Positions 37,690 to 60,043 of a stretch of DNA of 64,000 nt are shown here, one piece after another. The stretch is taken from positions 62,001 through 126,000 of the forward strand of contig NZ_JARHTQ010000018.1 in the NCBI RefSeq assembly GCF_029223525.1. The letters are read 5' to 3'. Position 1 is the first letter of the stretch, and each line of letters starts with the position of its first letter. The notes under the pieces were generated by a model that was not told the origin of the DNA, ran no database searches, and saw only the letters and a program-made list of their open reading frames with translations. The translations under genes and the position numbers were made by a program. This stretch comes from Streptantibioticus ferralitis. Lineage in GTDB: Bacteria > Actinomycetota > Actinomycetes > Streptomycetales > Streptomycetaceae.

Positions 37690-39693
37690 CTATCGCGGGC
37701 CGCCGTGCAGTTCCCGATGCCACAGGGCCTCGCACAGCAGGTCCAGGCCCTGGCGCAGGTGACGCCGGTAGGTGCCGTACGGAAGGCTGAGGCGGCGGGC
37801 GGCGGCCTCCTGGGTGGGCGCACCGGAGAAGTAACTCGCTGTCAGGGCCTCGCGGGCTCGTACCCCTCGCGGGTCATGGGCGAGGTCGTCGACGGCCTGG
37901 CGCAGCAGGGCGCGCAGTTCCTCGGCGGGGTCGGCGAAATCGGCCGCGAGACGGGCACGCATCAGGGCGCAGGCGGCGAAGGTGCCCGGGTCGCGCCAGT
38001 GCGACAGGGCCTCGCGCACGGCCTGGTCGAACGCGGTGCGCGAGACGCCGGACGGCCCGGACTGGGCAGGCACATCGGTGGCTGATATGAAGTGGCGAAG
38101 CCAGGTCTCGACGGGCACCAGGCGCCAGTCGACGCTGAACAGCCCGTACGTGTGCTCGCCGACCCGCGGTCGCGCACCGGTGTCAGCGAGGCTGCCCTTG
38201 ACGCGCGCGGACCACGCATCGGCGTCTCGCCAGACGGCGAAGCCATATGCGCGACCGCGGGCACGGGCGGATTCCGCCTGGGCGCGGGAACTGCTCAGGT
38301 CGATGACGCGCGAGGGGACCTGGTACCGCTCGGGGTAGACCGAGAAGCGGCTTATGCCGATGTGCTCGCCCGGGCTCACCGGCGCGGTGGCGTCGGTGTG
38401 CTCCCAGGCCGCTGCCACGACGGGATCGGTGGCCAGATCCTGGGGGTCGGGCGGGGCCAGCAGAGCGAGTCGGGCCGTGAACGCCACGATCCGGCCCGTG
38501 TTCACCAGACGGTAGACGCTGAAAGCCTGCGGCTGGCGCTGTGCCCAGTAGCGGACCAGATCCGCGGAGGCCGGGCCCTCGGTCTCCTCGGCCATGCGCA
38601 GTACGACGTCGAGGTCGTCCGGGTGCAGAGGACGGTCGTGTACCTCGTCCTCACGGGACCATGTCCGCAGACGCGCCACGATCTCCCCCTCTCGGAAGAG
38701 GTAGAAGAGTTCGTCGGTGACGGTCCAGACCCGCTCCTCGGGTGCCTCGCGCAGCAGGCGCAGGTACTCCTCCGTCAGTCGCCGGCGCATCGTCACAAAA
38801 GTGTTGGGGGCTCGCCAGCGCAGGTCTGCGGCCAGAGTCTCGCGTGCGGCGTCGTGTGGATGGAGCCCCCGGTAAGTGGACTCCATGAAGGGCAGGTCCC
38901 TCAGCCAGGCGAAGAGCAGGTGGGCGTCCTCCTCGGGCAGCACCGCAGCAAGCAGTTCCTCGGAGGTCGAATACGCCTGGGCGGCCACCTCCAGGGCGCG
39001 GCGGTGAGCCGCCGACGGCACCTCTCCGATCAGCCCCACCAACAGGATTCGCAGGACATCGGCCGAAGGCGCCCAGATCTCCTCCCTGCTCCAGCCCGTC
39101 GAACCCGCTGCCGCCGCCAGGGACAGGGCCAGCGGGTTGCCTCCGGCGAAGCGGAGCACCAAGTCCCGCAGTTCGGGCCCGATCCGGGCCGCGGCCAGCA
39201 GGCTCCGGGCCTGCTCCTCGGAGAACGGCTCCAGTTCGGTCACGTGCAGGAGGCCGGCCCAGGCGGGGTCGGCGGTCCACTGCGGCTGCGGCGCGAGTCG
39301 ACCTCCCAGGACGATCAGGGCACCGTCCGCGGCGCGAGGCAGGAAGTGGTGCCACAGCCAGCTTTCGAGCCACTGGCAGTGCTCGAAGGAGTCCACGAAC
39401 AAGACCGTGCCGGGAACGTCCAGGAAGGCACTGGCCGCCCGCTCGAAGTCGGCCGGGTCCCGGCTGACGAAACGGCCGTCGAGTTCGACGAGCAGCCGGC
39501 CCGCCGCACGAGCATGGTCCGCCAGACGCCGCAGCAGCGTCGACTTCCCGATACCGCCCGGCCCGAACAGGTAGAATGCGAACGGCGCTTGCGGATCGTC
39601 GGCCAAAGCCTCCGCGAAGCGTGCGAGTTCCTCGTCTCGGCCGATGAAGGCCTGTACTCGCGCAGCGCTCAGTCTCTCTCCGACGGACGCCAC
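37690..39693 (-). CDS. ATP-binding regulator: N-terminal AAA/STAND ATPase, C-terminal HTH
   Basis: A 667-residue protein. Start GTG 39693 is supported by GGGGAG six bases upstream; the open frame further up is not coding-like. P-loop GPGGIGKST is at 44-52 and a Walker B-like VLFVDSFEHCQW at about D101. The middle shows winged-helix-like segments and a domain of unknown type. The last 55 residues (REALTASYFSGAPTQEAAAR, then RLSLPYGTYRRHLRQGLDLL) look like a sigma region 4 or LuxR-type HTH. It may be an ATP-dependent transcription activator or a STAND sensor. It could control the adjacent leftward SnoaL/P450 genes, from which it is separated by about 350 bases. Confidence 0.75.
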   Translation of the reverse strand: MASVGERLSAARVQAFIGRDEELARFAEALADDPQAPFAFYLFGPGGIGKSTLLRRLADHARAAGRLLVELDGRFVSRDPADFERAASAFLDVPGTVLFVDSFEHCQWLESWLWHHFLPRAADGALIVLGGRLAPQPQWTADPAWAGLLHVTELEPFSEEQARSLLAAARIGPELRDLVLRFAGGNPLALSLAAAAGSTGWSREEIWAPSADVLRILLVGLIGEVPSAAHRRALEVAAQAYSTSEELLAAVLPEEDAHLLFAWLRDLPFMESTYRGLHPHDAARETLAADLRWRAPNTFVTMRRRLTEEYLRLLREAPEERVWTVTDELFYLFREGEIVARLRTWSREDEVHDRPLHPDDLDVVLRMAEETEGPASADLVRYWAQRQPQAFSVYRLVNTGRIVAFTARLALLAPPDPQDLATDPVVAAAWEHTDATAPVSPGEHIGISRFSVYPERYQVPSRVIDLSSSRAQAESARARGRAYGFAVWRDADAWSARVKGSLADTGARPRVGEHTYGLFSVDWRLVPVETWLRHFISATDVPAQSGPSGVSRTAFDQAVREALSHWRDPGTFAACALMRARLAADFADPAEELRALLRQAVDDLAHDPRGVRAREALTASYFSGAPTQEAAARRLSLPYGTYRRHLRQGLDLLCEALWHRELHGGPR

Positions 39694-40044: not shown

Positions 40045-40440
40045 TCACTTGACGAGTCCCAGGTTCCTGTCGTCGGCGTGGCCGGCGACCAGGAGGGTGG
40101 TTTCTTCGACGCGCTGGAATCGCCCGTCGGGGGCGAACTGGGCGAAGAGGTACACCTCGGTGCGGGAGGCGCGGCCGTTGTGCTGGGTGAGGGTGACGGT
40201 GTGGCGGTCGGCGTAGCGCGGACCGTCGCGCAGTTCGTCATGGACCTCGATGTGCCCGCTGCGGACCAGGGAGCGAAGGCGAGCCATGTGCTGGGCGAAC
40301 GAGTTCCGATCGCTCCACACGCCGTCAGTGCGCTGGCGGTAGTCGGGGGTGAAGTGTCGATCGAGGGCTTCGGTGAGGTCGAGGCCCGGGTTGAACAGCA
40401 GGTCGTTGATGGCTCGGGTGATGTCGGTCGGAGTCATCAC
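40045..40440 (-). CDS. SnoaL-like / NTF2-fold protein
   Basis: A 131-residue alpha+beta barrel protein. It reads LDLTEALDRHFTPDYRQRTD, with SFAQHMARLRSLV and a final sheet RASRTEVYLFAQFAPDGR and FQRVEETTLLV, the layout of SnoaL-like polyketide cyclase or hydratase relatives. Catalytic residues are not clear. It starts at ATG 40440 or 40437, 111 bases after the P450 gene stop, on the same strand, so the two are likely co-transcribed. Confidence 0.75.
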   Translation of the reverse strand: MMTPTDITRAINDLLFNPGLDLTEALDRHFTPDYRQRTDGVWSDRNSFAQHMARLRSLVRSGHIEVHDELRDGPRYADRHTVTLTQHNGRASRTEVYLFAQFAPDGRFQRVEETTLLVAGHADDRNLGLVK

Positions 40441-41802: not shown

Positions 41803-42209
41803 TCAAGGGGAACGGGCACAGAGGGAACGCTGGGGCGGCAGGGCTTCGGTGACAGTGAGCATCTTGAGCAGCTCTGATCGGGACTGGCCGTGTGAGAGAA
41901 CCCGGCCGATGAAGGTCTGCTCGCCGAGTTCTCAGGCTGGCGGTAAGCCACGAGCGATTCGCCGACACCCAGGGCCAGGGTCGGTAGGAAGAAGGAGAGT
42001 TCGGCCGACATGCGGGAAGCGATGCGCTCCGCCTGCTGGTGCGTGACAGGGGCGGTGGTCCGCGGCCCCGTGCACCGTGCGCAGACGACCGGGCACCGCT
42101 TTCCGCGCCGTGGCCGGGCAGGCAGCTCGCACTCTGGGCAACGTTGTCGGTTCCCACGTCGGGACGGTCGATAGGGTCCGTCAGGGTGGCTCGACGCCGA
42201 CCCACCCAT
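41803..42209 (-). pseudogene. Small Cys-rich protein gene with a frameshift, upstream of the P450
   Basis: From ATG 42209 the product has a zinc-ribbon-like CPECELPARPRRGKRCPVVC, ARC, then HQQAERIASRMSAELSFFL and GVGESLVAYRQPE. Near 41930 the open frame loses its character; a frame change continues coherently as GEQTFIGRVLSHGQSRSELL, KMLTVTEALPPQRSL, to a stop at 41803. The joined product would be about 135 residues. I do not know the family. Because it precedes the P450 by only 15 bases, they were probably one operon. Either a pseudogene or a sequencing error near 41930. Confidence 0.55.
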
Positions 42210-42497
42210 TGAAATTGTCGTGTGGACTATAACCTGCCGCCGAGCGGGCTGGACCTGGCGGTGGAGGACGCTCAGGCTGTCGTGGACACGGAGTTGCGAC
42301 GCCAGATCAAGCAGGGCGGACCCGGCAGACGGGAAAGCCGATCGGGGGCGACAGTGTCCGCGCCCAGTGATCATGGTCAGTGTGGGGGCGGCTGTGAGCT
42401 GGTTGACTGCTTCCGGATGGGTGTGGGGCAGCGGCCCCGCAACTCCTGGAACTACTCGACGTCGATCCAACCCGACCACGCTGGCTGGACACTCGCT

Positions 42498-42842
42498 TTC
42501 CTGTAGCGGCGTGCGGCGTCCGTAACGCACCGTCAGCCCCTGGACCTGCTCGGCGAAAGTGACCCGCTCGCAGCCGGTGTTGTCGCAGAACAGTCGCCGG
42601 ATCATCAGCTGGATGCAGGCCCGGCGTCCACCGACCGCCGCATCGTCGAGACGGCGCACGTACCCGCTGTGCCGCCGGCTCGACGGCGCACCGCAGTCCG
42701 GACACGGCACCGCCACGGTCGAGGATGTCCTGGCCTCGATCCGCAGCAAGTCCCTCTCAGACACCATGGATTGCACCCGCACCCCGCCGAGGTGCGGCAA
42801 CATCACCGTCAACAGCCCCTCACACAGGGCGAGCATCACCAT
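42498..42842 (-). pseudogene. N-terminal fragment of an ISL3-family transposase
   Basis: About 115 residues begin LCEGLLTVMLPHLGGVRV and carry the zinc-finger segment CPDCGAPSSRRHSGYVRRL and CDNTGCERVTFAEQVQGLT, the signature of ISL3 N-termini. After YGRRTPLQ the match ends; the DDE catalytic domain is absent. Confidence 0.8.
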
Positions 42843-43031
42843 CCAAGCGACGGAGCGTCACGGAAGCACGGTGGCACGGACCGGTTTCACGGAAATCTTG
42901 GAAGAGCCCTTGATCTCCCCGCTGGCGGACATCAGAGGTCCCCGCTGGTGGACGGGTGTGGACAGTGCTGGACAGTCCCTGGCCCTGTCGGGCCTGGAAA
43001 GTGGACACCGTCCGACACGAGTCTGTGTGCC

Positions 43032-43262
43032 ATGAACGTTGCACACCCGCAGACGGACCCGGCAGCACGCCGGTCCCCCCGGACAGGAGTGGTCTTGGCG
43101 GCACTGGCCGTGGCCCAGTTCACCGTCATGCTCGCCGCCTCGATCGTCAACGTGGCGCTCCGGCAGATCCTCGCCGGGATCGGCCCGTCGGAGGGCGTGA
43201 CCACCCGGGTGGTCAACGCCGACGCCCTCGCGTTGCTCAGTAGCGACAGTTTCTGTCTCTGA
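43032..43262 (+). pseudogene. Truncated MFS transporter copy
   Basis: From ATG 43032 the product reads GVVLAALAVAQFTVMLAASI, VNVALRQILAGIGPS, which parallels the first membrane segment of the intact transporter beginning at 43383. After VVNADALALLSS the frame stops at 43262. It appears to be an old partial homologue just upstream of the functional gene. Confidence 0.65.
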
Positions 43263-43382
43263 CAGAAGCGAGCGCCAGAAACGGCGATCGGCTTCCGCCC
43301 GTAGTTCGTGGGTGCCCGCCTCGGTCTCCAGTCGAGCGGAAACCACGCCTGATCCGGTATCAGAAGAAAGGAGCCAGGTGTC

Positions 43383-44912
43383 ATGGACGCCCTGCGTACC
43401 CCACCCACCTCGCCCACCGCCCAGAACCCCTCGCCCGCCCCGGGCCGCACGCCCTACCCGCGACGCTGGGCCGCGCTGGCCGTGCTCGCGGTCGCCCAGT
43501 TCATGGTCGTGCTCGACTCCTCGATCGTGAACATCGCCCTGCCGGACATCGGCATCGGACTGCACATGACGGCGTCCTCGCTGTCCTGGGTGGTCACCGC
43601 CTACGTACTCACCTTCGGCGGACTGCTTATGCTCGGCGGCCGGATCGCCGACCTCCGCGGTCGGCGCGGGACCTTCCTGACCGGACTGATCGGATTCGCC
43701 GCCGCATCGGCGGTCGCCGCCTTCGCGCCCACAGCAGGCACCCTGATCGCCGCCCGCGCCGTCCAGGGATCAGCGGCGGCGCTGATGTCACCGTCCGCCC
43801 TCTCCCTGGTCACCACCCTGTTCACCGGCAGCGAGCGAGCCAAGGCGCTCGGGGTGTGGGGCGCGGTCGCCGGCAGCGGCGGTGCAGCGGGCGTGCTCCT
43901 GGGCGGCGTGCTCACCGGCACCTTCGGCTGGCCCGCGATCTTCTTCGTCAACCTCCCCGTCGCGGTGGCGGTGGCCGCAGGTGCCCTGCGCTACGTGCCC
44001 CGCAGCAGCGGGACCCGAGGCCGCATCGACCTTCCCGGGGCAACCGCCCTCACCACGGGACTCGCCGCGATCGTCTACGGCCTCTCACAGAGCCACGACA
44101 AGGGGTTCACCTCACCCCTCGTCCTGACCGCCCTCGGCCTCGGCGCGGCCCTGCTGGCGGCCTTCATCGCGACAGAGCGGGCGGTCCCCCAGCCCCTGGT
44201 GCCGCTGCGGATCTTCCGCCTGCGCACCGTCACCTCCGCCAACGCCGTCATGGCAGCGATCGGCGCGGCCACCGTGGGCCTGTTCTTCTTCCTGTCCCTC
44301 TACATACAGCAGATCCTCCACTACACGCCCCTCAAGGCCGGGCTCAGCCAGCTCCCCCTCGCCCTGACAATCACCACGGCCGCCTGGCTGGCGCCACGGC
44401 TCGCAGCCCGCACCAGCATCAAGACCCTCCTGGTCACTGGGCCACTGCTGCTCACCGCCGGCCTCGGCTGGCTCTCCACCGCCTCCGTGCACGGCACTTA
44501 CACCGGCGTCATCCTCGGGCCCGCGCTGTTGGTCGGAGCAGGCCTGGGCCTGTCCTTCGTCAGCGTCAACGTCACCGCCGCCGCCAAGGTCGCTCCGAGC
44601 GACGCCGGCCTGGCCGGAGGCCTGATCAACACCACCCAGCAGGTCGGCGGAGCCCTCGGACTCGCCCTGCTGACCGCCGTCGCCACCAGCCGCACCGGAA
44701 CCAACCCCAGCCTCGCCTCGGTCGACAGCGGCTTCCAGGCAGCCTTCCTCACCGCAGCGGCCATCGCCGCTGCCGCCGCCCTCATCGCCGCCCTCATCGC
44801 CCCCCCGCACCGGCCGGCCCACGACAGCGCCGGCGACCAGCAAGGCCCCCTGAATACCCCGCCCCCCGAACCCCGACTCTCAGTGCCCAAGCCCGAATGG
44901 ACATCACCATGA
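43383..44912 (+). CDS. MFS drug-resistance transporter, DHA2 family (14 membrane segments)
   Basis: A 509-residue integral membrane protein. The first segment ALAVLAVAQFMVVLDSSIVN holds the DHA2 motif (LDxxIVN), and RIADLRGRRGTFLTGL is MFS motif A; motif C-like GSGGAAGVLLGGVLTG is present. About fourteen hydrophobic segments follow, as expected of DHA2 proton antiporters. It is the first gene of a four-gene unit; its last four bases overlap the SRPBCC start (ATGA). It may export the product or the toxic substrate of the oxygenase. GAAAGGAGC lies nine bases before the start. Confidence 0.9.
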   Translation: MDALRTPPTSPTAQNPSPAPGRTPYPRRWAALAVLAVAQFMVVLDSSIVNIALPDIGIGLHMTASSLSWVVTAYVLTFGGLLMLGGRIADLRGRRGTFLTGLIGFAAASAVAAFAPTAGTLIAARAVQGSAAALMSPSALSLVTTLFTGSERAKALGVWGAVAGSGGAAGVLLGGVLTGTFGWPAIFFVNLPVAVAVAAGALRYVPRSSGTRGRIDLPGATALTTGLAAIVYGLSQSHDKGFTSPLVLTALGLGAALLAAFIATERAVPQPLVPLRIFRLRTVTSANAVMAAIGAATVGLFFFLSLYIQQILHYTPLKAGLSQLPLALTITTAAWLAPRLAARTSIKTLLVTGPLLLTAGLGWLSTASVHGTYTGVILGPALLVGAGLGLSFVSVNVTAAAKVAPSDAGLAGGLINTTQQVGGALGLALLTAVATSRTGTNPSLASVDSGFQAAFLTAAAIAAAAALIAALIAPPHRPAHDSAGDQQGPLNTPPPEPRLSVPKPEWTSP

Positions 44913-45382
44913 ACACCAACACCCCGCAGCCCCAGCAGGCCCCGATCACCGCCGTCGACGAGAACGCCCCCGTCATCGTGCGGGTCTCCACCACCGTCAA
45001 CGCTCCCCTCGCCACCGTCTGGGACCTACACACCGACATCGCGGGATGGGCCCGGTGGAACGCGAACGTCGAAAGGATCGAGTTCGCCGGCCCACTCACC
45101 CCCGGAGCGAGCTTCCACTGGCTCACCCACGGCCTCGAGATCACCTCCACCCTCTTCCAGGTCGTACACGGCGAGCGCATCGTCTGGGGCGGCCCCGCGA
45201 ACGGCATCGACGGCATCCACGTATGGGCCTTCGAGGAGCACGACGGCGCGGTGACCGTCCACACCGAGGAGTCCTGGAGCGGTGCTGTGGTCGAGGCCCA
45301 GCCCGACCAACTGCAGCAGGCCCTGGAGCAGTCCCTGACCGACTGGCTGCGCCGGCTCAAGACCGAGGCCGAGAACCGCTAG
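44909..45382 (+). CDS. SRPBCC (START/polyketide cyclase-like) family protein
   Basis: A 157-residue protein. Start ATG 44909 is chosen because it forms an ATGA overlap with the transporter stop. The fold is indicated by VRVSTTVNAPLATVWDLHTD, IAGWARWNANVERIEF and a final long helix QPDQLQQALEQSLTDWLRRL. SRPBCC proteins hold hydrophobic ligands in a deep pocket. Between an exporter and a carotenoid oxygenase it might bind an apocarotenoid or similar compound; this is inference. Confidence 0.85.
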   Translation: MNTNTPQPQQAPITAVDENAPVIVRVSTTVNAPLATVWDLHTDIAGWARWNANVERIEFAGPLTPGASFHWLTHGLEITSTLFQVVHGERIVWGGPANGIDGIHVWAFEEHDGAVTVHTEESWSGAVVEAQPDQLQQALEQSLTDWLRRLKTEAENR

Positions 45383-45451
45383 CACAGCCGCCACCGCAGT
45401 CCCACGCCCTACCCAACTGCCGACCACACCAGACGCATCGAGGTTCCTGCC

Positions 45452-46807
45452 ATGACCAGCAAGCCGTACCTGACCGGCCACTTCACCCCCGTCGCCGAGG
45501 AGACCACCGCCACCGGCCTCACCATCGAGGGCTCGCTGCCCCCCGAGCTGACCGGCCGACTGCTCCGCAACGGCCACAACCCCAAGCCCGGCATCACCCC
45601 GACCCACTGGTTCAAGGGCAGCGGCATGGTCCACGGCATCCGCCTGCGCGAGGGCCGCGCCGAGTGGTACCGCAACCGCTGGGTGCGCACCCCCGCCCTG
45701 GACGGCGCCCCCTACATGACCGAGCACGGACCCGAACTGACCGCCAGCGCCGCCGGGACCCACGTCATCGAACACGCCGGACGCCTGCTGGCCCTGTGTG
45801 AGGCCAACCTCCCCTTCGAGCTCACCCCGGAGCTGGACACCGTCGGCGCCTACGACTTCGGCGGCAAGCTCCGCAACGCGATGACCGCCCACCCCAAGGA
45901 GGACCCGGTGACCGGGGAGCTCCACTTCTTCGGCTCCTCGCCGCTGCCGCCGTTCCTGACGTACTACGTCGCCGACGCCAAGGGCGAGATCGTCCACAGC
46001 GCCGAGGTCCCAGGGGCGACCGCCTCGCTCAAGCACGACTTCGCTCTCACCCGCCGCCACGTCGTCTTCATCGAGGGCAACGTCACCTTCGACCCGACCG
46101 AACACTCCGGCATCCCCTACGGCTGGAGCGACGGGCAGCCCGCCCGCATCGGTGTCATGCCACGCGGAAACGACGGCGCCCGGCACATCCGTTGGTTCTC
46201 CATCGAACCGGGCAACGTGCTGCACGTCGCCAACGCCTACGAGGACGGCCAGGGCCGCGTCGTCCTGGAAGGCCCCACTGTGGACCGCGAGGGTTTCCAG
46301 CTCTCCTGGAACTGGTGGGTCGGCGCGCCCGGGCGCGGTACCGAGCCCGTCTCCCGCTCCTACACCCGCCGTTGGGTGGTCGACATGGCCGACGGTACCG
46401 TCGACGAGCAGATCATCGACGACCTCGCGGTGGAGTTCCCCACCCTCAACGAGGAGTACCTGGGCGCCGAGCACCGCTACCAGTACGCCATCTCCTTCCC
46501 CGACGAGAAGGGCTTCGGCGGCTACGGTGTCGCCAAGTACGACCGCACCACCGGCGCCCGCCGCATCCACCAGGTCGGCGACGCCCGCATGCCCAGCGAA
46601 GCCGTCTTCGTCCCCGCCGCCGGAGCCACCCGCGAGGACGACGGCTACCTGCTCACCGTCGTCTCCGACATCAAGCAGGACGCCTCCCGCCTCCTGGTCC
46701 TGGACGCCTCCGGCCTCGACCAGATCGCCGCCGTCCACCTGCCCCACCGGGTGAGCGCCGGACTCCACGGCTCCTGGATCCCCGACACCGCTCCGCAGCT
46801 GAGTTGA
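45452..46807 (+). CDS. Carotenoid oxygenase family protein
   Basis: A 451-residue non-heme iron dioxygenase of the carotenoid/stilbene cleavage family. The four iron-binding histidines can be placed at H147 (MTAHPKED), H195 (SLKHDFALT), H258 (NVLHVANAYED) and H439 (AGLHGSW). The N-terminal LRNGHNPKPG and WFKGSGMVHGI are also family features. It would cleave a C=C bond of a carotenoid, apocarotenoid or stilbenoid. It starts 69 bases after the SRPBCC gene. No carotenoid biosynthesis gene is in the window, so the substrate is unknown. Confidence 0.92.
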   Translation: MTSKPYLTGHFTPVAEETTATGLTIEGSLPPELTGRLLRNGHNPKPGITPTHWFKGSGMVHGIRLREGRAEWYRNRWVRTPALDGAPYMTEHGPELTASAAGTHVIEHAGRLLALCEANLPFELTPELDTVGAYDFGGKLRNAMTAHPKEDPVTGELHFFGSSPLPPFLTYYVADAKGEIVHSAEVPGATASLKHDFALTRRHVVFIEGNVTFDPTEHSGIPYGWSDGQPARIGVMPRGNDGARHIRWFSIEPGNVLHVANAYEDGQGRVVLEGPTVDREGFQLSWNWWVGAPGRGTEPVSRSYTRRWVVDMADGTVDEQIIDDLAVEFPTLNEEYLGAEHRYQYAISFPDEKGFGGYGVAKYDRTTGARRIHQVGDARMPSEAVFVPAAGATREDDGYLLTVVSDIKQDASRLLVLDASGLDQIAAVHLPHRVSAGLHGSWIPDTAPQLS

Positions 46808-46881
46808 CCTCAGACCTCCGGATTCCACCCTCCAACCCGGATCCCGGCCCCGCATCACGATTGATAACGAAAGGCACTGTC

Positions 46882-47382
46882 ATGAACCTCCGCAAGCCCC
46901 GCATTCTGATCACCCTGTCCGCCGCCGCTGTCGGCGTCACCCTCCTGGGCGGTACCGCCTTCGCCGACAAGGCTCCCGACCGCGACATCCCGAGCCAGGT
47001 CACGGCCTGGGCCGCGGCCTGGAACGGCACCGACCCCCACCAGCTCGGCAACCTCTTCACCAGCGACGGCACCTACACCGACGAAGCCGTCGTCCTCACC
47101 TCCCACGGCCGCCAGGAGATCAGCGGATGGAAGGCACGCACCGACATGCTCATCGACAACGTCCACGACACCGTGACCGGCGCCTACCGAAGCGGTGACC
47201 ACATCACCATCGAGTCGGTGTACGCCGGGCACATCAAGGGCGCACCCAAGCCCTTCGCGGTGCCCATGGCCACCATCCTCGTCCTCGACGGGAAGCAGAT
47301 CGCCAGCGATAAGGACTACTACAACCTCAACGCGGTTCTCACCCAGTCCGGCCTGCCCACTGACTGGACCCCCGGCAAGTAA
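46882..47382 (+). CDS. Secreted NTF2-like / SnoaL-like protein
   Basis: A 166-residue exported protein with signal peptide RILITLSAAAVGVTLLGGTA and cleavage near AFA at about 29. The mature part is NTF2-like: VTAWAAAWNGTDPHQLGNLF, TSDGTYTDEAVV and FAVPMATILVLDGKQI. GAAAGGCAC precedes the ATG at 46882. It is the last gene of the 43383-47382 unit and is followed by a strong hairpin. Being secreted, it would act outside the cell, unlike its operon partners; the ligand is unknown. Confidence 0.82.
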   Translation: MNLRKPRILITLSAAAVGVTLLGGTAFADKAPDRDIPSQVTAWAAAWNGTDPHQLGNLFTSDGTYTDEAVVLTSHGRQEISGWKARTDMLIDNVHDTVTGAYRSGDHITIESVYAGHIKGAPKPFAVPMATILVLDGKQIASDKDYYNLNAVLTQSGLPTDWTPGK

Positions 47383-47444: not shown

Positions 47445-47490
47445 CGCCGGAGGTCCCGGTACCCACCAGCGGGTACCGGGATCTCCGGCG
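47445..47490. terminator. Strong hairpin terminating the carotenoid oxygenase operon
   Basis: Two 20-base arms pair at 19 of 20 positions (CGCCGGAG at the base, CCCGGTACCC at the tip) around the loop ACCAGC. It starts 63 bases after the last stop. No T-run follows. Confidence 0.75.
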
Positions 47491-48013: not shown

Positions 48014-48664
48014 TCAACGGCCCGCGAGGGCTTCCGTTTCGGCGGCGTAGAGCTGGGCGGGGTCGAATCCCATGCCGGTGAAGTGGCCGGCGAGTTCGAG
48101 GGAGAGCACGCCGTGGAGGCGGGTCCAGAAGGTGAGGGCACGGCGGAGCGCTGACGGCGGGGCCGGGTGCTGTCCGGCCCAGGCCCGGCGCTCGGCCAGG
48201 TGCGGGTCGAGCGGGGACGGCGCCGTGGCGGGCGGTTGCTCGGCGGTGCAGGCGTCGAGGAGGACGGTCATGATCTCGGAGGTGATTCGCGTGGTGTCTT
48301 CGGGCGCTTGGTATCCGGGCACGGGGGTGCCGTAGACGAGGAAGTACCGCTGGGGGTCGGCCAGAGCCCACTGGCGCAGGGCGTGCGCCAGGTCGCCGAG
48401 GTCGGCGCCGGCCTCGGCGCGGGCGCGGAAGGTGTCGGCCAGGCTGCGGTAGGCGTCTTTGACGAGTTCGGTGATCAGCTCGTCGCGGTTGGCGAAGTAC
48501 CGGTAGAGGGCCGGTCCGCTCATGCCCATCTGCTTGGCGATGGCGTTGAGGGACAGGGCGTAGGCCCCGGCGGCAGCGAGCTGTGTCCAGGCGTGTTGCT
48601 TGATTTCCTCCCGCACCTGGGCGCGGTACCGCTCCCTCGGAGTCCTCGTGTCCGCCTCGATCAC
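48014..48664 (-). CDS. TetR/AcrR-family transcriptional repressor
   Basis: A 216-residue regulator starting at ATG 48664. The HTH at about 37-65 reads LSLNAIAKQMGMSGPALYRY then FANRDELI, and the C-terminal TetR_C-type domain includes RYFLVYGTPVPGYQAP and TRLHGVLSLELAGHF. It is divergent from the MDR oxidoreductase gene; the 136-base gap holds a 19-base imperfect palindrome. It is likely to repress that gene and itself. Confidence 0.9.
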   Translation of the reverse strand: MIEADTRTPRERYRAQVREEIKQHAWTQLAAAGAYALSLNAIAKQMGMSGPALYRYFANRDELITELVKDAYRSLADTFRARAEAGADLGDLAHALRQWALADPQRYFLVYGTPVPGYQAPEDTTRITSEIMTVLLDACTAEQPPATAPSPLDPHLAERRAWAGQHPAPPSALRRALTFWTRLHGVLSLELAGHFTGMGFDPAQLYAAETEALAGR

Positions 48665-48723: not shown

Positions 48724-48800
48724 GCTCTTGACTCTCACCCATCGTGGGAGTTATAACTTCTAGCGAACGCGAATCCATCTATCAAGAAGAGGGGGCGGTC

Positions 48801-49832
48801 ATGGGTAGCGCACACCTCGTCCAGGTCGTTCTGCCGGGCATCGTGGCTCCGGAAGGCCTGAAGATCCGCCAAGCAGCCGTACCGGACGCCGGCCGGGGAC
48901 AGATCGTGATCGCCATGGAGGCGACCGGCGTCTCGTTCGCCGAGCAGCAGATGCGCCGCGGGCGGTACTACGACCAGCCGCCGTTCCCGTTCGTGCCCGG
49001 CTACGACCTCGTGGGTCGGGTGCTGACGACCGGCCAGGGTGTCGACCCGGGCCTGGCCGGGCGGCGGGTGGCCGCGCTGGTGAAGGTCGGCGGGTGGGCC
49101 AGCCATGTGGCGGTCGACGCCGAGGACGCGGTCCAGGTCCCGGACGGCATCACGGCGGCGGAGGCCGAGACCGTAGTGGTCAACGGCATCACCGCCTGGC
49201 AGATGCTGCACCGCAAGGCCCGGGTGCGCGCCGGGCAGACCGTCCTGGTGCACGGCGCCAGCGGCGGCGTGGGCTCCGTCCTGGTCCAACTCGCCCGTGC
49301 GGCGGGCGTGAACGTGATCGGCACGGCCTCCGCCCGGCACCACGACGCCCTGCGGGACCTGGGCGTCGTCCCGGTCGACTACCGCGCTGGCGACGTGCCC
49401 GCCCGGGTCCGGGAGCTGGCGCCCAGCGGGGTGGACGCCGTCTTCGACCACGTCGGCGGCCGAAGTGTCACCGACTCCTGGCACCTGCTCGCCCCCGGCG
49501 GCACCCTCGTCGCCTACGGCAGCGCCTCCACCCGCGACGACACCGGCTCCAAACAGTGGCCCGTGCTGAAGATCCTCGCCCGCACCTGGCTCTGGAACAC
49601 CCTGCCCAACGGCCGCCGCGCCCACTTCTACAACATCTGGGCCGGCCGGGCCCTGAGCAAGGACCGCTTCCGCGCCCGGCTGCGGGCCGACCTCACCGAG
49701 GTCTTCGCCGCCGTCCGCCGCGGCGACGTCACCGCCCGCATCGCCGCCCAACTGCCGCTCACCAGGGCTGCCGAGGCACTGCGCCTCGCAGAGTCCGGCA
49801 CCGTCACCGGCAAGGTCGTCCTGACCCCCTGA
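48801..49832 (+). CDS. Medium-chain (MDR) quinone oxidoreductase-like dehydrogenase
   Basis: A 343-residue NADPH-dependent oxidoreductase; ATG 48801 with AGAGGGGGC upstream is preferred over ATG 48744, which lies close to the promoter region. The N-terminal GroES-like domain (GVSFAEQQMRRGRYYDQPPF) lacks structural zinc cysteines, and the nucleotide fold carries VLVHGASGGVGSVLVQLA at about 148-165. These point to the zinc-independent quinone oxidoreductase branch. It may detoxify quinones or enones. Divergent from the TetR gene and probably regulated by it. Confidence 0.88.
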   Translation: MGSAHLVQVVLPGIVAPEGLKIRQAAVPDAGRGQIVIAMEATGVSFAEQQMRRGRYYDQPPFPFVPGYDLVGRVLTTGQGVDPGLAGRRVAALVKVGGWASHVAVDAEDAVQVPDGITAAEAETVVVNGITAWQMLHRKARVRAGQTVLVHGASGGVGSVLVQLARAAGVNVIGTASARHHDALRDLGVVPVDYRAGDVPARVRELAPSGVDAVFDHVGGRSVTDSWHLLAPGGTLVAYGSASTRDDTGSKQWPVLKILARTWLWNTLPNGRRAHFYNIWAGRALSKDRFRARLRADLTEVFAAVRRGDVTARIAAQLPLTRAAEALRLAESGTVTGKVVLTP

Positions 49833-51013: not shown

Positions 51014-54000
51014 GTGGCTTCCTCAACACAACCTCTTGACACTGCCGACGATCGAGGGACGAACCGCGGCTGGGCCGAGCCGATCGCGATCGTCGGAATC
51101 GGCTGCCGCTTCCCCGGCGGGATCACGGATCCCCGGAGCTTCTGGGAGCTGGTCGTCTCCGGAGTGGACGCTATCACCGACATTCCGGCTGACCGGTGGA
51201 ATGCCGATGGCTTTTTCGACGCCGATTCCGCTACTCCGGGCCGGATGTTCATCCGGCAGGGAGGGTTTCTCCGTTCGGCTCTGGAGGAGTTCGACGCGGG
51301 TTTCTTCGGGATGCCGCCGCGTGAGGCCGCCGCATTGGATCCGCAGCAGAGGCTGCTGCTGGAAGTGACCTGGGAAGCCTTCGAGGACGCCGGAATTCCG
51401 CCGAGTTCGACCGCCGCCACCGATGTGGGCGCATTCGTCGGAGGGTTCACTTTCGACGCCGCGGGTCTGGCGATGGCCGACCAGAACCGGCATCTGCTCA
51501 GCGTGGCCACCCCGACCGGGGTGAGCATGACCATGCTCGCGGCGCGGCTGTCGTACACGTTCGACTGGCAGGGGCCGTGCTTCACGCTCGACACCGCGTG
51601 TTCCTCGTCGCTGGTCGCGCTCCACCAGGCATGCTCCGCGCTGGACCGTGGCGAGTGCGAACTGGCGGTGGCCGGCGGCGTGAACATGATGTTCCTTCCG
51701 GTCACCACGATGGCGATGGCGAAGGGACAGTTCCTGTCCCCGGACGCCCGCTGTAAGTCGTTCGACCACCGTGCGAACGGATATGTACGCAGCGAAGGTG
51801 CGGGAATGGTCGTGCTCAAGCCGCTTTCCGCGGCTCAGCGCGGCGGCGACCGGATCCACGCGGTGGTCCGCGGAACGGCGGTGAACCATGACGGCCGTAC
51901 TCCCGGCGTGCCGGTGCCCAGCATCGAGGCCCAACGTGCCTTGATCCGGCGGGTGTTCCGGGCGACCGGTGTCGAGCCGGGTTCGGTGGGCTACTACGAG
52001 GCCCACGGCACGGGCACCGCCGTGGGGGATCCGATCGAGGCGGCGGCGATCGGTGACGCACTCGACGGCTCCGACCGCACCCACTGGATGGGTTCGGTGA
52101 AGTCGAACTTCGGCCACACCGAGGCGGCGGCCGGGGTGGCGGGAGTGATCAAGGCGAGCCTGTGCCTGGAACACGGGCTCATCCCGCCGAACGTGCACCT
52201 CGAAAAGCCCAACCCCGATATCCCGTTCGACCGGCTACCGTTGCGCGTGCCCACCGAGTCGGTCCCCTTTCCGAAGTACGACGGGCCGCGGCGGGCGGGG
52301 GTCAACTCGTTCGGCGTCGGTGGTACGAACGCACACGCCATTCTCGAGGAGGCACCGGGCGTCAGGTCCGTCGGAACCGGCGGGACCGGTGGGAAGGACG
52401 GCGGCGAGCCGCTGTTGCTCCCGCTGTCGGCGCGGAGCCAAGGGGCGCTGCGCGCGCTCGCCGACGCCTACGCGACCCTGCTCGAACAGCCGGAGGCGCC
52501 GGCGTTACGGCGCGTCGCCGGTGCCGCCGCAAGACGGCGCGACCACCATTCCCTGCGGGCCTTCGTCGTCGCCGCCGACCCCGAGGAAGCGGCCGGGAAA
52601 CTGCGGCAGCTCGGAGTCGCCCCGCAGCGGACGGAACGGCGGGCGGTCGCGTTCGTCTACACGGGAATGGGCCCGCAGTGGTGGGGAATGGGCCGGGAAC
52701 TGCTGCTGGAAGAGCCACGCTTCGCCGAGGTCGTCGCCGCGTGTGACGCGACCCTCGAGAGGTTCGGCGTTTCGGTCCGCGAGGAACTGCTCCGCGACGA
52801 GGCCGAATCCCGATTGACCAGGACCCTCTATGCGCAGGTCGCCAATTTCGTGGTGCAGGCCGGGCTGACGGCGCTGTGGCGCGACTGGGGAATCGAGCCT
52901 GCCGCGATCGTGGGCCACAGCGTGGGCGAGGTGGCTGCAGCACATGCGGCCGGTGTGTACACGCTGGAGGACGCGCTGACAGTGAGCTTCCACCGGGCGA
53001 GTCTGCAATCGACGCTCGCCGGTCGCGGCAGCATGATCGCGGTCGGCCTGCCCGCCGACGAGCTCTCCCCCTACCTGGCCGAAGGCGTATCGGTGGCCGC
53101 GATCAACAGCATGACGGCGACCACGCTGGCCGGTGGTCATGAGGCCGTCGACGCCGTGGCCGAACGGCTGAAGGCGGCGGGCGCAGCCGTCACGCCGCTG
53201 CGGGTCGAAGTGGCCTACCACAGCCCGCAGATGGACGAGATCCGCGAAGCACTGCCGGCGGCCCTGGCCGGCATCCGGCCGGGCCGGGCCCAGGTGCCGC
53301 TGTACTCGACGGTGACCGGCGACCGGGTCGACGGCTCCGAGCTCGACGGCGAGTACTGGTGGGGGAACGTCCGGCAACCGGTGCGTTTCGCCGACGCCTT
53401 CCGGCGCCTACTCGGCCAGGGGCCCGGGGCGGTGCTGGAGGTCGGGCCGCATCCGGTGCTTGCTGCGGCGGTGGACGAGGCCCTGACCGACCGCGGCACC
53501 GATGCGGTACGGCTGGCCTCACTGCGCCGGGACCGCCCGCAGCGTCAGCAACTGCTGGAAACGCTCGGTTCCCTCTACACGGCCGGTGCCACGCCGAACT
53601 GGGAGCGGGTGCACCCCGGCCCGCCGGACCACATCGACCTCCCGCTCTACCCGTGGCAGCGGGACCGCCACTGGAGCGAGTCGCCGGCCTCCCGGCAGGC
53701 GCGCCTGAACCTCGGCGGCCTGTCCCTCGGCGGCCGGACCGTCGCCTCGGCCACGCCGATCCAGAACGTCGAACTGGGCACGGCCGAGTTCCCGTACCTC
53801 GAAGACCACCGGATCGGCGACGATGTGATCTTCCCGGGCGCCGGGTACGTCGAGGCCGCGCTCGCCATGTTTCCCGACGACGAGCCATGCTTCCTTGAGG
53901 ACATCGTCTTCCACCGGCCGCTCGTGCTCTCGCCGTCCTCGGTGACCACCCTGCGCGTCGGTTACGATCCGACGCGCCGACAGGTGAGCCTGCACAGCCG

Positions 54001-57000
54001 CGCCCAAGCGGACGACCCCGACTGGGCGCTGCACACCGAGCTGCGCCGGTCGTACCTCGCCGGGCCGGCGCTGCCGCCGCCGCGCACCGACACCCTCGCC
54101 GAGCACACCTGTTCGTTGCCGATGCTCGACCACGACGAGGTGTACGCACGCCTCGCCGCCGGCGACCTGAACTACGGACCGGCGTTCCGCGCTGTCGACC
54201 GGCTGTGGCTCCGGGAGCAGACCGGAGAGGTCTTCGCCGAGATCGACCTCGACACCGTGGACCCGGCGGGCCACCGCCTGCACCCGGTGTTCCTGGACGC
54301 CGGTCTCCAGGCCGTGTTCGCCGGGGCTCTCGTGCTCGGCGGTCCCGCCGCGGCCGGCACCTACGTACCGGCCCGTATCGCCGAACTCCGGTACTACCGC
54401 GCACCAGGCCAGCGGCTGTGGGTCCACGGCCGCGACCGGCACAGCACGGTCCCGGGACGGTTCGAATGCGACCTCACCCTCGTCACCGACCACGGCGAGG
54501 TCGTCGCGGAGGTGGTCGGCCTGCGCGCCCAGCGCCTGGCCGACGACGGCGCCGTGACCACCGCACCCGGTCAGCGCCTCTACTACGAGCACGCCTGGCG
54601 GCCGGAACCGCTCGACCGCACCGGCGACGCCGAGGGCACCTGGATTCTCGTCGGCTCCTCGGCCACCGCAGCCGGGCTGGAACGACGGCTCACCGCGTCG
54701 GGCGGCACCGTCATGCGCACCGACCCGGCCGAGGAGGACTGGCCGGAACGCGTCAAGGGCTGCCGCGGCGTGGTCTACGTCGCGGACCACCGGACGGCCG
54801 ACGCGCCCGTGTGCGCACCGGTCGCCGAGCCGCTCCGGCTGGTGCAGGCGATGCCGGTCGCCGAGGTGCCGCTGTTCATCGTCACCGCCGGTACGCAGAG
54901 CGTCTCCCCCGAGGACCAGACCACCGACCCGTTCGCCGCCGCGCTGTGGGGGTTCGGCCGGGTCGTCAACGCCGAACGGCCGGAACTGCGCTGCCGCCTC
55001 ATCGACATCGACGCGGGCGCCGAGGACGCACTGCTGGACGAGCTCCTCCACGACGGGCTCGACGAGGTGGCGCTGCGCGGCGACACGCGCCACATCCGAC
55101 GGCTGGAACCCGCCGGGGACCTGTCCCCGCTACACCAGGTGAACACCCGTACCGACATCACGCCGGTCCGCCTCGGCGTGCTCCGCACCACCGCCGACAA
55201 CCTCCGGTTCGCCGCGTCTCTCCGGCGAGAGCCCGGCCCCACCGAGGTCGAGATCGAAGTCGCCTACGTCGGCGTCAACTTCAAGGACGTGCTGAAGGTG
55301 ACCGGGCTGCTCGCGCCACAGGCGATGGAGGGCAGCCACTCGCGGGAGACGCTCGGCCTGGAGTGCTCGGGCACCGTCGTCCGGGTCGGCGAGGACGTGA
55401 CCGACCTGGTACCCGGCGACGAGGTGTTCGCGCACAGCCGGGCACTATTCGCATCGCATGTGACGCTCGACGCGGTTCGGGTGGTGCGCAAGCCCGCCAG
55501 GCTGTCCCCGGCACAGGCCGCCTCGCTGCTCCCGGTGGTCACGGCGTACCTTTCGCTGATACGAATGGCCAGGGTACGCGCGGGCGACCGGGTCCTGGTC
55601 CACTCGGCCGCCGGGGGCGTCGGGCTGGCCGCGGTCCGCATCGCCGCCCGGCTCGGCGCCGAGGTGTTCGCCACCGCCGGCAGTCGAACACGGCGGGAGT
55701 TCCTGCGCGACCAGGGCCTGGCCCACGTGGCCGACTCCCGGTCCACGGCGTTCGCCGACGACGTGCTCCGCTGGACCGGTGGCGAAGGCGTCGACGTCAT
55801 CGTCAACTCGCTGCCCGGGGAGATGATCCACCACAACCTCCGGGTGCTCCGCACCTTCGGCCACTTCGTCGAATTGGGCAAACCCGGCACCGACACCGGT
55901 CCCGCACAGCGGGCGATGACGCACCACTCGTTCGACTACGACCAGATGATGGCACTGCGGCCGGAGGACGTCCGTACGTCCATGCGGGAGGTGGCCGCCC
56001 TCTTCGAGAAGGGCGTCATCGCCCCGCTGCCGGTCACCGAGCTGCCCGCCGACCAGGTCGACAAGGCGATGCTGGCGATGGGCGGGCCCGACCACCTCGG
56101 CAAGATCGTAGTTCGCCTGTCCGGTGAACCGGTCACCGTTCCCGCCTCCTCACTCACCGGATCGCCGGTCCGGCCCGACGCCACCTATGTGCTCATAGGC
56201 GGCCTGGGCGGCCTGGGGCGTACGGTCGCCCGCTGGCTCGCCGAGCGGGGAGCCGGTCATCTCGTACTGGTCGGACGCAGCGGTGTCGCGACGGCCGAGG
56301 CCGAGCGGGCGCTGGCCGAGCTGACCGGCCAGGGCGTCGAGGTCCGGGTCGAGAAGGCCGACGTGGCCGACCGGAACCAGGTGGCCGCCCTGCTCGCGCG
56401 GATCCGCACCACGATGCCGCCGATCCGGGGCATCGTCCACGCCGCGGCCGACTTCGACGACGCCGTGCTCTCGGACACCGACGCGGCGCGCCTGGTGGCC
56501 GCCACCCGGCCGAAGGCGGACGGCGCCTGGAACCTGCATCTGGAGACCCGACCGGACACCCTCGACTTCTTCCTGCTCTTCTCCTCGGTGGGGGCACAGC
56601 TGGGCTCCGTCGCACTGGGCGCCTATGCGACCGCGAACGAGTTCCTGAACGCCCTCGCCCGCTACCGGAGCGCCCGGGGCCTGCCCGCCACCAGCATCGG
56701 CTGGGGCATGATCGACGACGTGGGCGTGGCGGTCAGCGGCAACGGTGAGGTCGGCTCCTTCCTTCGCCGCAACGGGCACGTCGGCTTGTCACCCGCGCGG
56801 TTCGTGACCGAGCTGGAGACGGTACTGCGGACCCGTCCGGTCGAGGCCTCGGTGGCCGACATCGACTGGCCGCACTGGGCCCGGGCCAACCCGCAGCTCG
56901 CCTCGCTGCCGCGGGTCCGCTCGGTGGTGCCGGCCGGTGCGGCAGGCAGCGGCGACGGGTCAGGCGCGCCGCGCCTGGGGAGCCTCAGCCCGCAGGAACG

Positions 57001-58864: not shown

Positions 58865-60043
58865 ATGGCCCCCACACTTCCCCGTACCGATCTCGACCTG
58901 TTCAGCGACGATGTCCTCGCCGATCCCTATCCTGTCTATGCGGATCTGAGGGCCCAAGCGAGCGCGATCTTCCTTGAGCGACACGGCGCGTGGGCGATAC
59001 CCCGCTATGACGGTGTCCGCGAGGCGCTGTCGAACTGGCGGGTCTTCTCCTCCGCGCGAGGGGTCGCTCTCAATGACGCGATGAACTCGGCCCAGCAGGG
59101 CACGGTGCTGGCCTCCGACCCACCTGAGCACCGCGCCCTCCGCTCCGTGCTCTCCGAGCAGCTCGCACCCCGTGGGCTGCAGCGGCTGCGGGGCGATCTG
59201 GAACGCTCGGCCACCCAACTCGTCGATGCCTTGGTCGAGAGAGACTCGTTCGACGCCGTCACCGATCTGGCCCAGGTGTTCCCGCTCGCTGTCGTCGCCG
59301 ACCTCGTCGGGATTCCGGACTCGGTGCGGAACCGTTTGCTCTCCTGGGCCGACGCGAGCTTCACCGCCTTCGGCCCGCTGAACGATCGGACTCGGAAGAG
59401 CTGGGAGGCGCGCAAGGAGATGTTCCGCTGGTGCCGTTCCGTGCGCGCGAGCGAACTCGCTCCCGGCAGCATGGGACGCGCGATCTTCGAGGCCGCTGAC
59501 GCGGGAATCATTGACCACGCATCGTGCGCTCCCCTGCTCTCGGCCTACACCACCGCAGGTATCGACACCACCGTTCATGCGCTCTCCCATGCCGTCCTCA
59601 TGTTCGCCGAGAACCCTGATCAGTGGGACCTCGTCCGCGACGGCGATGTCGATGTCCTCGATGCCTTCGACGAGGTCCTGCGACACGATTCGCCGGTGCA
59701 GGCCTTTACCCGCGTGACCACGACGAGCGTCGACTTTGAGGACGTTACGGTCCCGGCCGGCGAACGTGTGGTGCTGTTGTTCGGGTCCGGCAACCGCGAC
59801 GAGCGCCACTACACCGATCCGGACCGCTTCGACGTGACCCGCAAGCCCAGCGACCATCTGTCCTTCGGCCGAGGAGTTCACTCGTGCGCCGGACAGGGGC
59901 TGGCTCGAATGGAGGCGTCCGCGGTCCTCTCGGCCCTCGCGCGACGGGTGCGACGGTGGCATGTCGGCGCTCCGGTCCGACACGTCAACAACGTGCTGCG
60001 GGGGTTGGCGAGCCTTCCGGTCGAACAGGTCGAACTCGCCTGA
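58865..60043 (+). CDS. Cytochrome P450
   Basis: A 392-residue P450 with all key motifs: I-helix AYTTAGIDTT, ExxR in FDEVLRHDSPV (preceded by EVL.R), and heme loop FGRGVHSCAGQGLAR with C341. The first part (DLFSDDVLADPYPVYADLRA) and HAPW-like region are as in CYP199/CYP203-type soluble bacterial P450s that oxidise small aromatic acids, but this is only a broad resemblance. ATG 58865 has GGAAGGGA about a dozen bases upstream. It lies downstream of the polyketide synthase across a transposase remnant, so it may tailor the polyketide. No ferredoxin gene is adjacent. Confidence 0.9.
   Translation: MAPTLPRTDLDLFSDDVLADPYPVYADLRAQASAIFLERHGAWAIPRYDGVREALSNWRVFSSARGVALNDAMNSAQQGTVLASDPPEHRALRSVLSEQLAPRGLQRLRGDLERSATQLVDALVERDSFDAVTDLAQVFPLAVVADLVGIPDSVRNRLLSWADASFTAFGPLNDRTRKSWEARKEMFRWCRSVRASELAPGSMGRAIFEAADAGIIDHASCAPLLSAYTTAGIDTTVHALSHAVLMFAENPDQWDLVRDGDVDVLDAFDEVLRHDSPVQAFTRVTTTSVDFEDVTVPAGERVVLLFGSGNRDERHYTDPDRFDVTRKPSDHLSFGRGVHSCAGQGLARMEASAVLSALARRVRRWHVGAPVRHVNNVLRGLASLPVEQVELA

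Follow-up and report, generated by a model that had tools for sequence, protein, structure and literature searches.

Oxygenases of the carotenoid-cleavage dioxygenase (CCD) family, PF03055, are also encoded in genomes that are unable to make carotenoids, and their role there is a wider question for which Mycobacterium tuberculosis provides the known case: its Rv0654 is a CCD in a genome lacking carotenogenic genes (PMC5133782, in excerpt). Relatives include the stilbene cleaver LSD4, in which a Tyr/Lys pair (Lys-134) holds the 4-hydroxyl group of the substrate (PMC8191317, in excerpt). Here we describe a CCD gene in a 64,000-nt stretch of Streptantibioticus ferralitis DNA (hereafter the window; positions 62,001–126,000 of contig NZ_JARHTQ010000018.1, assembly GCF_029223525.1), where it lies behind genes for an exporter of the major facilitator superfamily (MFS) and an SRPBCC (START/Bet v 1-like) protein. 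These three genes form a widespread, co-travelling cassette, conserved and mobile, with its own candidate operator. The best explanation, to which we would give about an even chance of being correct, is an inducible response that binds, cleaves and exports an alkene arriving from outside the cell.

Gene content was counted with tblastn around CCD loci L038–L117 (n = 80; 71–90% identity), which are the best 80 of 141, so that the counts are tilted towards close relatives. Matches covering less than 40% of the query were left out (e.g. SRPBCC fragments in L069 and L080), contig ends cut some loci (e.g. L089, L094 and L115), and genes within loci were called with a custom frame-composition script. 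An MFS gene lies directly upstream of the CCD gene on the same strand in 65 of the 80 loci, and an SRPBCC gene fills the slot before the CCD gene in 47; an MFS gene followed by the CCD gene, with neither SRPBCC nor SnoaL-like gene between, is found in 21. Homologues of the secreted SnoaL-like protein occupy that slot in two loci and occur anywhere in six. The sequence-only reading had treated all four genes as a unit, which the MFS, SRPBCC and CCD counts, together with gene fusions at seven loci (below), bear out for the first three; the SnoaL-like gene is occasional (6/80), which makes the four-gene operon a local combination. In fact, the exact gene order of the window recurs in none of the 120 loci L038–L157, the nearest being L055, where a peptidase-like gene intervenes.

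The linkage spans Streptomyces, Kitasatospora, Streptacidiphilus, Planobispora, Microbispora, Actinomadura and Actinocorallia. In a CCD tree, a quick build in which 40 of 100 inner branches are open, the CCDs of the last four genera and one Streptomyces CCD form a single clade nested within a larger, mostly Streptomyces and Kitasatospora clade, the pattern that would be expected under horizontal transfer. One cassette copy resides on a linear 853-kb Kitasatospora plasmid, and a Streptomyces plasmid with a 61%-identical CCD has the order MFS-CCD-SRPBCC, with a 4-nt overlap between MFS and CCD.

Within the window, the earlier description of four co-directional genes with an ATGA overlap, short gaps and a closing hairpin was confirmed. 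The open reading frames (ORFs) were found again and each family is backed by Pfam; the MFS and SRPBCC genes overlap by 4 nt (ATGA, 44909–44912), the gaps either side of the CCD gene are 69 nt (SRPBCC-CCD) and 74 nt (CCD-SnoaL-like), and the 20-nt hairpin arms are 95% complementary (19/20; −46.9 kcal/mol). The hairpin is followed by no T-run and is absent from the terminator scan output. The gene set then proposed was too small, since it overlooked the minus-strand partners, the repeat at 42950–42975 and a relict of an earlier MFS gene (Table 1).

Table 1. Features of the cassette and its surroundings, in window coordinates.
Feature	Coordinates	Strand	Basis
MFS exporter, DHA2-like	43383-44912	+	MFS_1 E 4.5e-51; replacement of canonical cassette MFS
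SRPBCC (START/Bet v 1-like) protein	44909-45382	+	Polyketide_cyc2 PF10604 E 2.4e-12
CCD-family oxygenase	45452-46807	+	RPE65 PF03055 E 8.3e-111
SnoaL/NTF2-like protein, putatively secreted, occasional accessory	46882-47382	+	SnoaL_2 PF12680 E 9.7e-8
Strong hairpin 3' of last gene	47445-47490	+	arms 47445-47464 / 47471-47490
Iterated element GGACGG-N4-GGACAG-N4-GGACAG, probable cassette control site	42950-42975	+	sole 2x and 3x match in window
Relict of canonical cassette MFS, codons 1-67	43032-43232	+	<=74.6% identity over 67 aa to canonical cassette MFS
Cassette regulator, AAA_16 ATPase, helix-turn-helix-like C-terminus (by eye)	37690-39693	-	PF13191 E 2.8e-9
Small SnoaL/NTF2-like protein (nS), without signal sequence	40045-40440	-	PF12680 E 5.7e-7
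CypX-like cytochrome P450	40552-41787	-	TIGR04538 521 bits; PDB 3nc3 (CypX) 511 bits
ISL3-type transposase remnant	42203-42842	-	PF14690 zinc ribbon E 8.7e-7
TTCTGTCTCTGACAGAA, 7-nt perfect palindrome arms, possible second operator	43250-43266	+	sequence; 5' of present MFS
TetR-family regulator, possible neighbour module	48014-48664	-	profile match and copies in relatives
Zinc-type alcohol dehydrogenase / quinone reductase, possible neighbour module	48744-49832	+	profile match and copies

The strongest hint that the SRPBCC protein serves the exporter comes from gene fusions. Leaving the window aside, MFS and SRPBCC share one open frame in 7 of the 52 loci that have both before the CCD gene (L057, 672 aa; L077, 619 aa; L137, 659 aa; and L082, L087, L093 and L100). 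Five of the seven fall in one clade and the distribution needs three changes on the CCD tree. Several fusions keep an internal Met at the former SRPBCC start, from which a separate SRPBCC protein might still be produced. The place of the exporter was also retained through an exchange of the gene itself. Behind the repeat at 42950–42975 lie the first 67 codons of a canonical cassette MFS, whose paralogy with the present MFS explains a 74-nt direct repeat shared with 43477–43550. The window MFS is 44–52% identical to the cassette MFS proteins aligning with it over 300 aa and has a median identity of 47% to the other MFS proteins compared, where most cassette MFS proteins have medians of 67–78% within the compared set, and it is 86% identical to the MFS of L108 (Kitasatospora sp. 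MAA19). DNA similarity between the window and L108 starts at 43359, just 5' of the new MFS start, and continues into the CCD gene (84%), and the two CCDs belong to separate clades (SH-aLRT 91 and 97). Taken together, the relict, the likeness to L108 from 43359 onwards and the separate CCD clades show that the canonical exporter was replaced by the present MFS. Its DHA2 label is borderline, as it scores half a bit below the TIGR00711 cut-off (229.7 against 230.2 bits), and it reached no model cut-off among the matches listed (25 of 42 NCBIfam). In L108, two near-palindromes like GTGAGTGGTTAGCCACTCA lie 5' of the replacement-type MFS and may be operators for a TetR-family regulator (tet4); none of this type is present in the upstream stretch of the window that was compared.

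In relatives, conservation 5' of the canonical MFS start centres on GGACAG-N4-GGACAG-N4-GGACAG. For counts of this repeat all 120 loci (L038–L157) were used, of which L118–L134 in part duplicate genomes of L038–L117, and overlapping repeat pairs were scored twice. The two-copy pattern has 97 sites in these 1.94 Mb, the loci from which the motif was itself derived. For 96 of them, the closest recognised gene that follows on the same strand within 560 nt belongs to the cassette (MFS, tet4 or, where the MFS has been lost, CCD), the exception being a site in L122. The repeat marks the head of the cassette where a gene for the AAA_16 regulator is near: it occurs in 43 of the 45 loci with the regulator, in 1 of the 34 with tet4 only and in 12 of the 41 in which neither regulator was seen. 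The Streptantibioticus ferralitis genome has three matches to the two-copy pattern, including that at 42950–42975, against one for the reversed control. Among 12 loci inspected around GGACAG matches, the sole close cassette-type part is the MFS of L185 (G167 C10:49823), where GGACAG-N4-GGACAG stands about 140 nt 5' of a further MFS, 48% identical to that of the window and about 30 kb from the CCD cassette of the same genome. At tet4 loci another element precedes tet4, with TTGAC conserved in an alignment of 38 and followed by GTGTGAGTGGTTGAGT in 7 of the 10 tet4-locus rows printed. In L067, L068, L071 and L072, the GGACAG repeat is followed by a leader similar to the canonical MFS start, and tet4 lies between these and the MFS gene as if inserted. 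The palindrome at 43250–43266 was rejected as a cassette operator because no counterpart was found just upstream of MFS in relatives; in the window TGTC-N(2-4)-GACA occurs at four places.

The start of the regulator was set at GTG 39693 by alignment with a relative, its ORF extending to 40014. Homologues were found in 40 loci (best 85.7% identity). At above 60% identity the regulator is present in 36 of the 80 loci, tet4 in 33 and both in four. The small SnoaL-like protein nS has matches in 12 loci (best 86.8%) and is present in 16 of the 80 by gene count. A P450 of above 70% identity is present in 19 of the 80, each of which also has the regulator (19/19); L124, outside the 80, has the P450 and no regulator match. 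In relatives these genes lie upstream of MFS-CCD, frequently all on the same strand, and regulator and P450 are inverted as in the window in L046 and L128 and both downstream and inverted in L066. Mapped onto the CCD tree, P450 presence requires 10 changes and regulator type 12. The P450, the small SnoaL-like protein and the regulator are movable parts and recurrent partners of the cassette.

Turning to the oxygenase, the CCD clears PF03055 easily (371.8 bits; gathering score 27). The four iron-binding His residues pointed out by the sequence-only reading are present (H147, H195, H258 and H439) and, with E117, E328 and E383, are invariant in all 120 rows of the alignment (window included; 1 of 121 rows was removed for length), so the enzyme keeps its full iron site. 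Its AlphaFold2 model (pLDDT 90.8) has as nearest solved folds plant CCD1 and VP14, then LsdA, CAO1 and ACO, and this predicted fold does not tell carotenoid from stilbenoid substrates. CAO1 Tyr133 aligns with Tyr88 (Tyr in 103/120), and CAO1 Lys164, which we take to be the equivalent of LSD4 Lys-134, aligns with Cys116. Across the 120 sequences this position is Cys in 99, Val in 8, Ser in 7, Gln in 6 and Lys in none. The replacement of the stilbene-cleaver Lys by Cys116 lowers the odds for 4-hydroxystilbenes, so that stilbenoids, which had been suggested as test substrates, are weakly disfavoured. The same evidence bears on a nutrient-use unit, in which the CCD would cleave lignin-derived stilbenes, isoeugenol-like phenylpropenes or plant apocarotenoids for growth and the MFS would act as an importer. 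CCD relatives with such activities exist (PMC8191317 and PMC6700365, both in excerpt) and a dehydrogenase gene adjoins the CCD gene in L116 and L145, but the Lys is missing, the lignostilbene dioxygenase model NF053778 gives 187.1 bits against a cut-off of 800, no aromatic-catabolism gene is found among the recurrent gene clusters (identified only for the commonest), and the MFS resembles drug exporters. We therefore regard growth on such compounds as improbable. A second CCD paralogue (46%) lies on contig C88 of the same genome (L002, L155) beside two genes that, by eye, encode a PadR-like regulator and a small membrane protein; several genomes share this arrangement (e.g. L147, L149, L150, L153 and L156).

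The host appears to lack carotenoid synthesis. In its genome, which is 99% complete, no phytoene desaturase (CrtI) passed the cut-off; the best match is far off (E 6.3e-41, judged under the cut-off from the E-value, bits not being listed). Two tandem SQS_PSY genes followed by a FAD amine-oxidase-like gene are present, which we take to be a squalene/hopanoid arrangement. Across the family CrtI E-values split into two groups. Of the 57 genomes with a close CCD, 14 have CrtI, compared with 174 of the other 337 (odds ratio 0.30, p 1.6e-4). For this comparison a cassette genome was one with a CCD at E <= 1e-200, neighbours unchecked; G176 (partial CCD, E 2.7e-126) was counted among the others; three first-look candidates per genome were scored; and CrtI states and genus strata were typed by hand, with totals for genus g10 obtained by subtraction. 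It is safe to say that the cassette is not positively associated with CrtI; evidence for a negative association is weak and may partly reflect descent. An endogenous carotenoid is accordingly disfavoured as the CCD target. That the CCD trims the host's own carotenoids (e.g. isorenieratene) among unrelated neighbours would suit its PF03055 membership, the carotenoid-cleaving plant enzymes among its nearest solved structures and the 14 of 57 carriers with CrtI; against this, 43 of the 57, Streptantibioticus ferralitis included, have no CrtI over the cut-off and the partners are conserved beside the CCD, and we consider it very improbable. The sequence-only reading had suggested the synthesis or disposal of an apocarotenoid-like signal or toxin. 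With no CrtI over the cut-off in the host genome and no positive association across genomes, disposal of an outside compound fits better than synthesis of a signal from the cell's own carotenoids.

In the inducible response that we favour, the regulator would sense a hydrophobic alkene that reaches the cell from outside, such as an apocarotenoid of plant or microbial origin or a polyene, and activate a promoter at about 42950–43030. In the cytosol the SRPBCC protein would bind this alkene, or the product of its cleavage, and hand it to the exporter, the CCD would cleave a C=C bond to give two carbonyl products, and the MFS would pump out product or substrate. The CypX-like P450, the SnoaL-like proteins and the TetR/dehydrogenase pair would be optional tailoring or binding parts. 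Several observations count against this scheme. No MFS lies directly upstream of the CCD in 15 of the 80 loci and no SRPBCC occupies the slot before it in 33, so that neither is indispensable. The position of the GGACAG repeat is partly a matter of construction, the motif having been derived from these same loci; what suggests that the regulator binds it is their co-occurrence, and the repeat is also carried by the 12 of 41 loci in which neither regulator was seen. Across 15 genomes the two-copy pattern has 38 matches, 13 at cassettes and 25 elsewhere, and the off-cassette matches are no commoner than those of the reversed control (25), so no wider GGACAG regulon is apparent. Finally, the 14 carriers do possess CrtI, stratification by the three largest genera reduces the association to a Mantel–Haenszel (MH) odds ratio of 0.44 (p 0.0495), and within g14 carriers and others hardly differ (CrtI in 4 of 28 against 7 of 42).

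The main rival to clearance of an outside alkene is the synthesis of a secreted product, whereby the CCD would make an apocarotenoid-like or other carbonyl compound from a precursor made by the cell, the SRPBCC and SnoaL-like proteins would bind or cyclise it and the MFS would secrete it as a signal or antibiotic. Partners of the tailoring type (P450 in 19/80, small SnoaL-like in 16/80) and an exporter are typical of biosynthesis, and a type I polyketide synthase (PKS) gene begins 1.2 kb past the neighbouring dehydrogenase gene in the window. However, no shared scaffold-making gene is among the gene clusters that occur in over 15 of the 121 clustered sequences (CCD, MFS, SRPBCC, P450, two regulators and one frame running antisense to SRPBCC), carotenoid synthesis was not seen in the host's own genome, and the PKS is not among the shared neighbours; for that last reason a link between cassette and PKS was discarded. 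On balance we judge a biosynthetic cassette unlikely. Returning to the outside-alkene response, a more specific version of it can be put forward tentatively, as likelier to be wrong than right. It holds that the START-like carrier and the DHA2-type exporter work as a single unit, fused in some species, which feeds or clears an alkene-cleaving CCD, and that together with its own regulator and iterated GGACAG operator this makes up an actinobacterial chemical-response system not described before, whose targets would be apocarotenoid- or polyene-like compounds made by plants or other microbes rather than by the host. Searches aimed at the cassette found no description of it in open-licence literature, a weak absence given that coverage; the operator sequence itself was not part of these searches. 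A limocrocin paper (PMC11727611) was dropped as a lead; the excerpted text makes one passing mention of carotenoid oxygenases.

Among the remaining features, the SRPBCC protein passes PF10604 (47.8 bits against a cut-off of 27.4), and its predicted model (AlphaFold2 pLDDT 91.6) and Foldseek matches agree on a helix-grip fold. Its top two matches are bacterial proteins (TMq 0.79 and 0.74), and many chains of plant abscisic acid receptors (PYR/PYL) follow from rank 3 (TMq 0.6–0.74, 10–22% identity). Abscisic acid is itself an apocarotenoid. The PYR/PYL matches were discounted, given how widespread this fold is and how many such receptors the PDB contains; the resemblance is one of fold only, and a function like that of an abscisic acid receptor was dismissed. 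Export of the SnoaL-like protein encoded at 46882–47382 is putative, judged from an N-terminal signal sequence by eye. Copies of the neighbouring TetR gene lie two genes 5' of the CCD gene in L145 (61%) and 4 kb 5' of it in L050 (69%), and those of the dehydrogenase gene directly 5' of the CCD gene in L145 (75%) and 3' of it in L116 (61%). Further downstream, 51014–58021 (+) encodes a single-module type I PKS (KS, AT, DH, ER, KR) that carries a prolyl-oligopeptidase-like hydrolase domain at its C-terminus, and a second P450 gene lies beyond it at 58865–60043.

How the individual parts compare with described systems can now be summarised. The window MFS resembles DHA2 drug exporters of the EmrB/LmrA type (TIGR00711, as above; Lmr(A) model, 228.9 bits), from which it differs in having an SRPBCC operon partner, elsewhere fused to the exporter. 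The secreted-type SnoaL-like protein matches PDB 4h3u over residues 35–165 (E 4.1e-58), itself annotated as a hypothetical protein. The P450 matches CypX (CYP134A1), of pulcherriminic acid synthesis in Bacillus subtilis, over 395 residues and passes the cut-off of 500 bits for TIGR04538, a model of P450s associated with cyclodipeptide synthase (CDPS), but differs in that no linked CDPS was seen. A CDPS was matched in 16 of 24 P450-bearing genomes and not in the other 8, and it lies elsewhere than the cassette in all 7 of the 16 for which cassette coordinates are known; a cyclodipeptide (pulcherriminic acid) pathway was accordingly excluded as the core of the cassette. The CDPS of Streptantibioticus ferralitis is on a different contig from the window (C22:286289-286948, L158), flanked by two other P450-like genes. 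With the lignostilbene-alpha,beta-dioxygenases (LSD, NOV1, CAO1) the CCD shares its fold and the Tyr at the CAO1 Tyr133 position, and differs in Cys116 and in model scores far under the cut-off. Nor does it reach the equivalog cut-off of NF052295, the named model nearest to it, for 8'-apo-carotenoid 13,14-cleaving dioxygenases (349.4 bits against 675). The likeness to Rv0654 of M. tuberculosis (MtCCO) is one of family and comprises the four His, the three Glu and the fold; the window CCD differs in sitting with an exporter and an SRPBCC protein. For a CCD in a genome apparently unable to make carotenoids, the cassette supplies an exporter, a binding protein (in some species fused to the exporter) and a candidate operator. 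Placing a reporter behind this operator could reveal the inducer, and hence the substrate class, without guessing.

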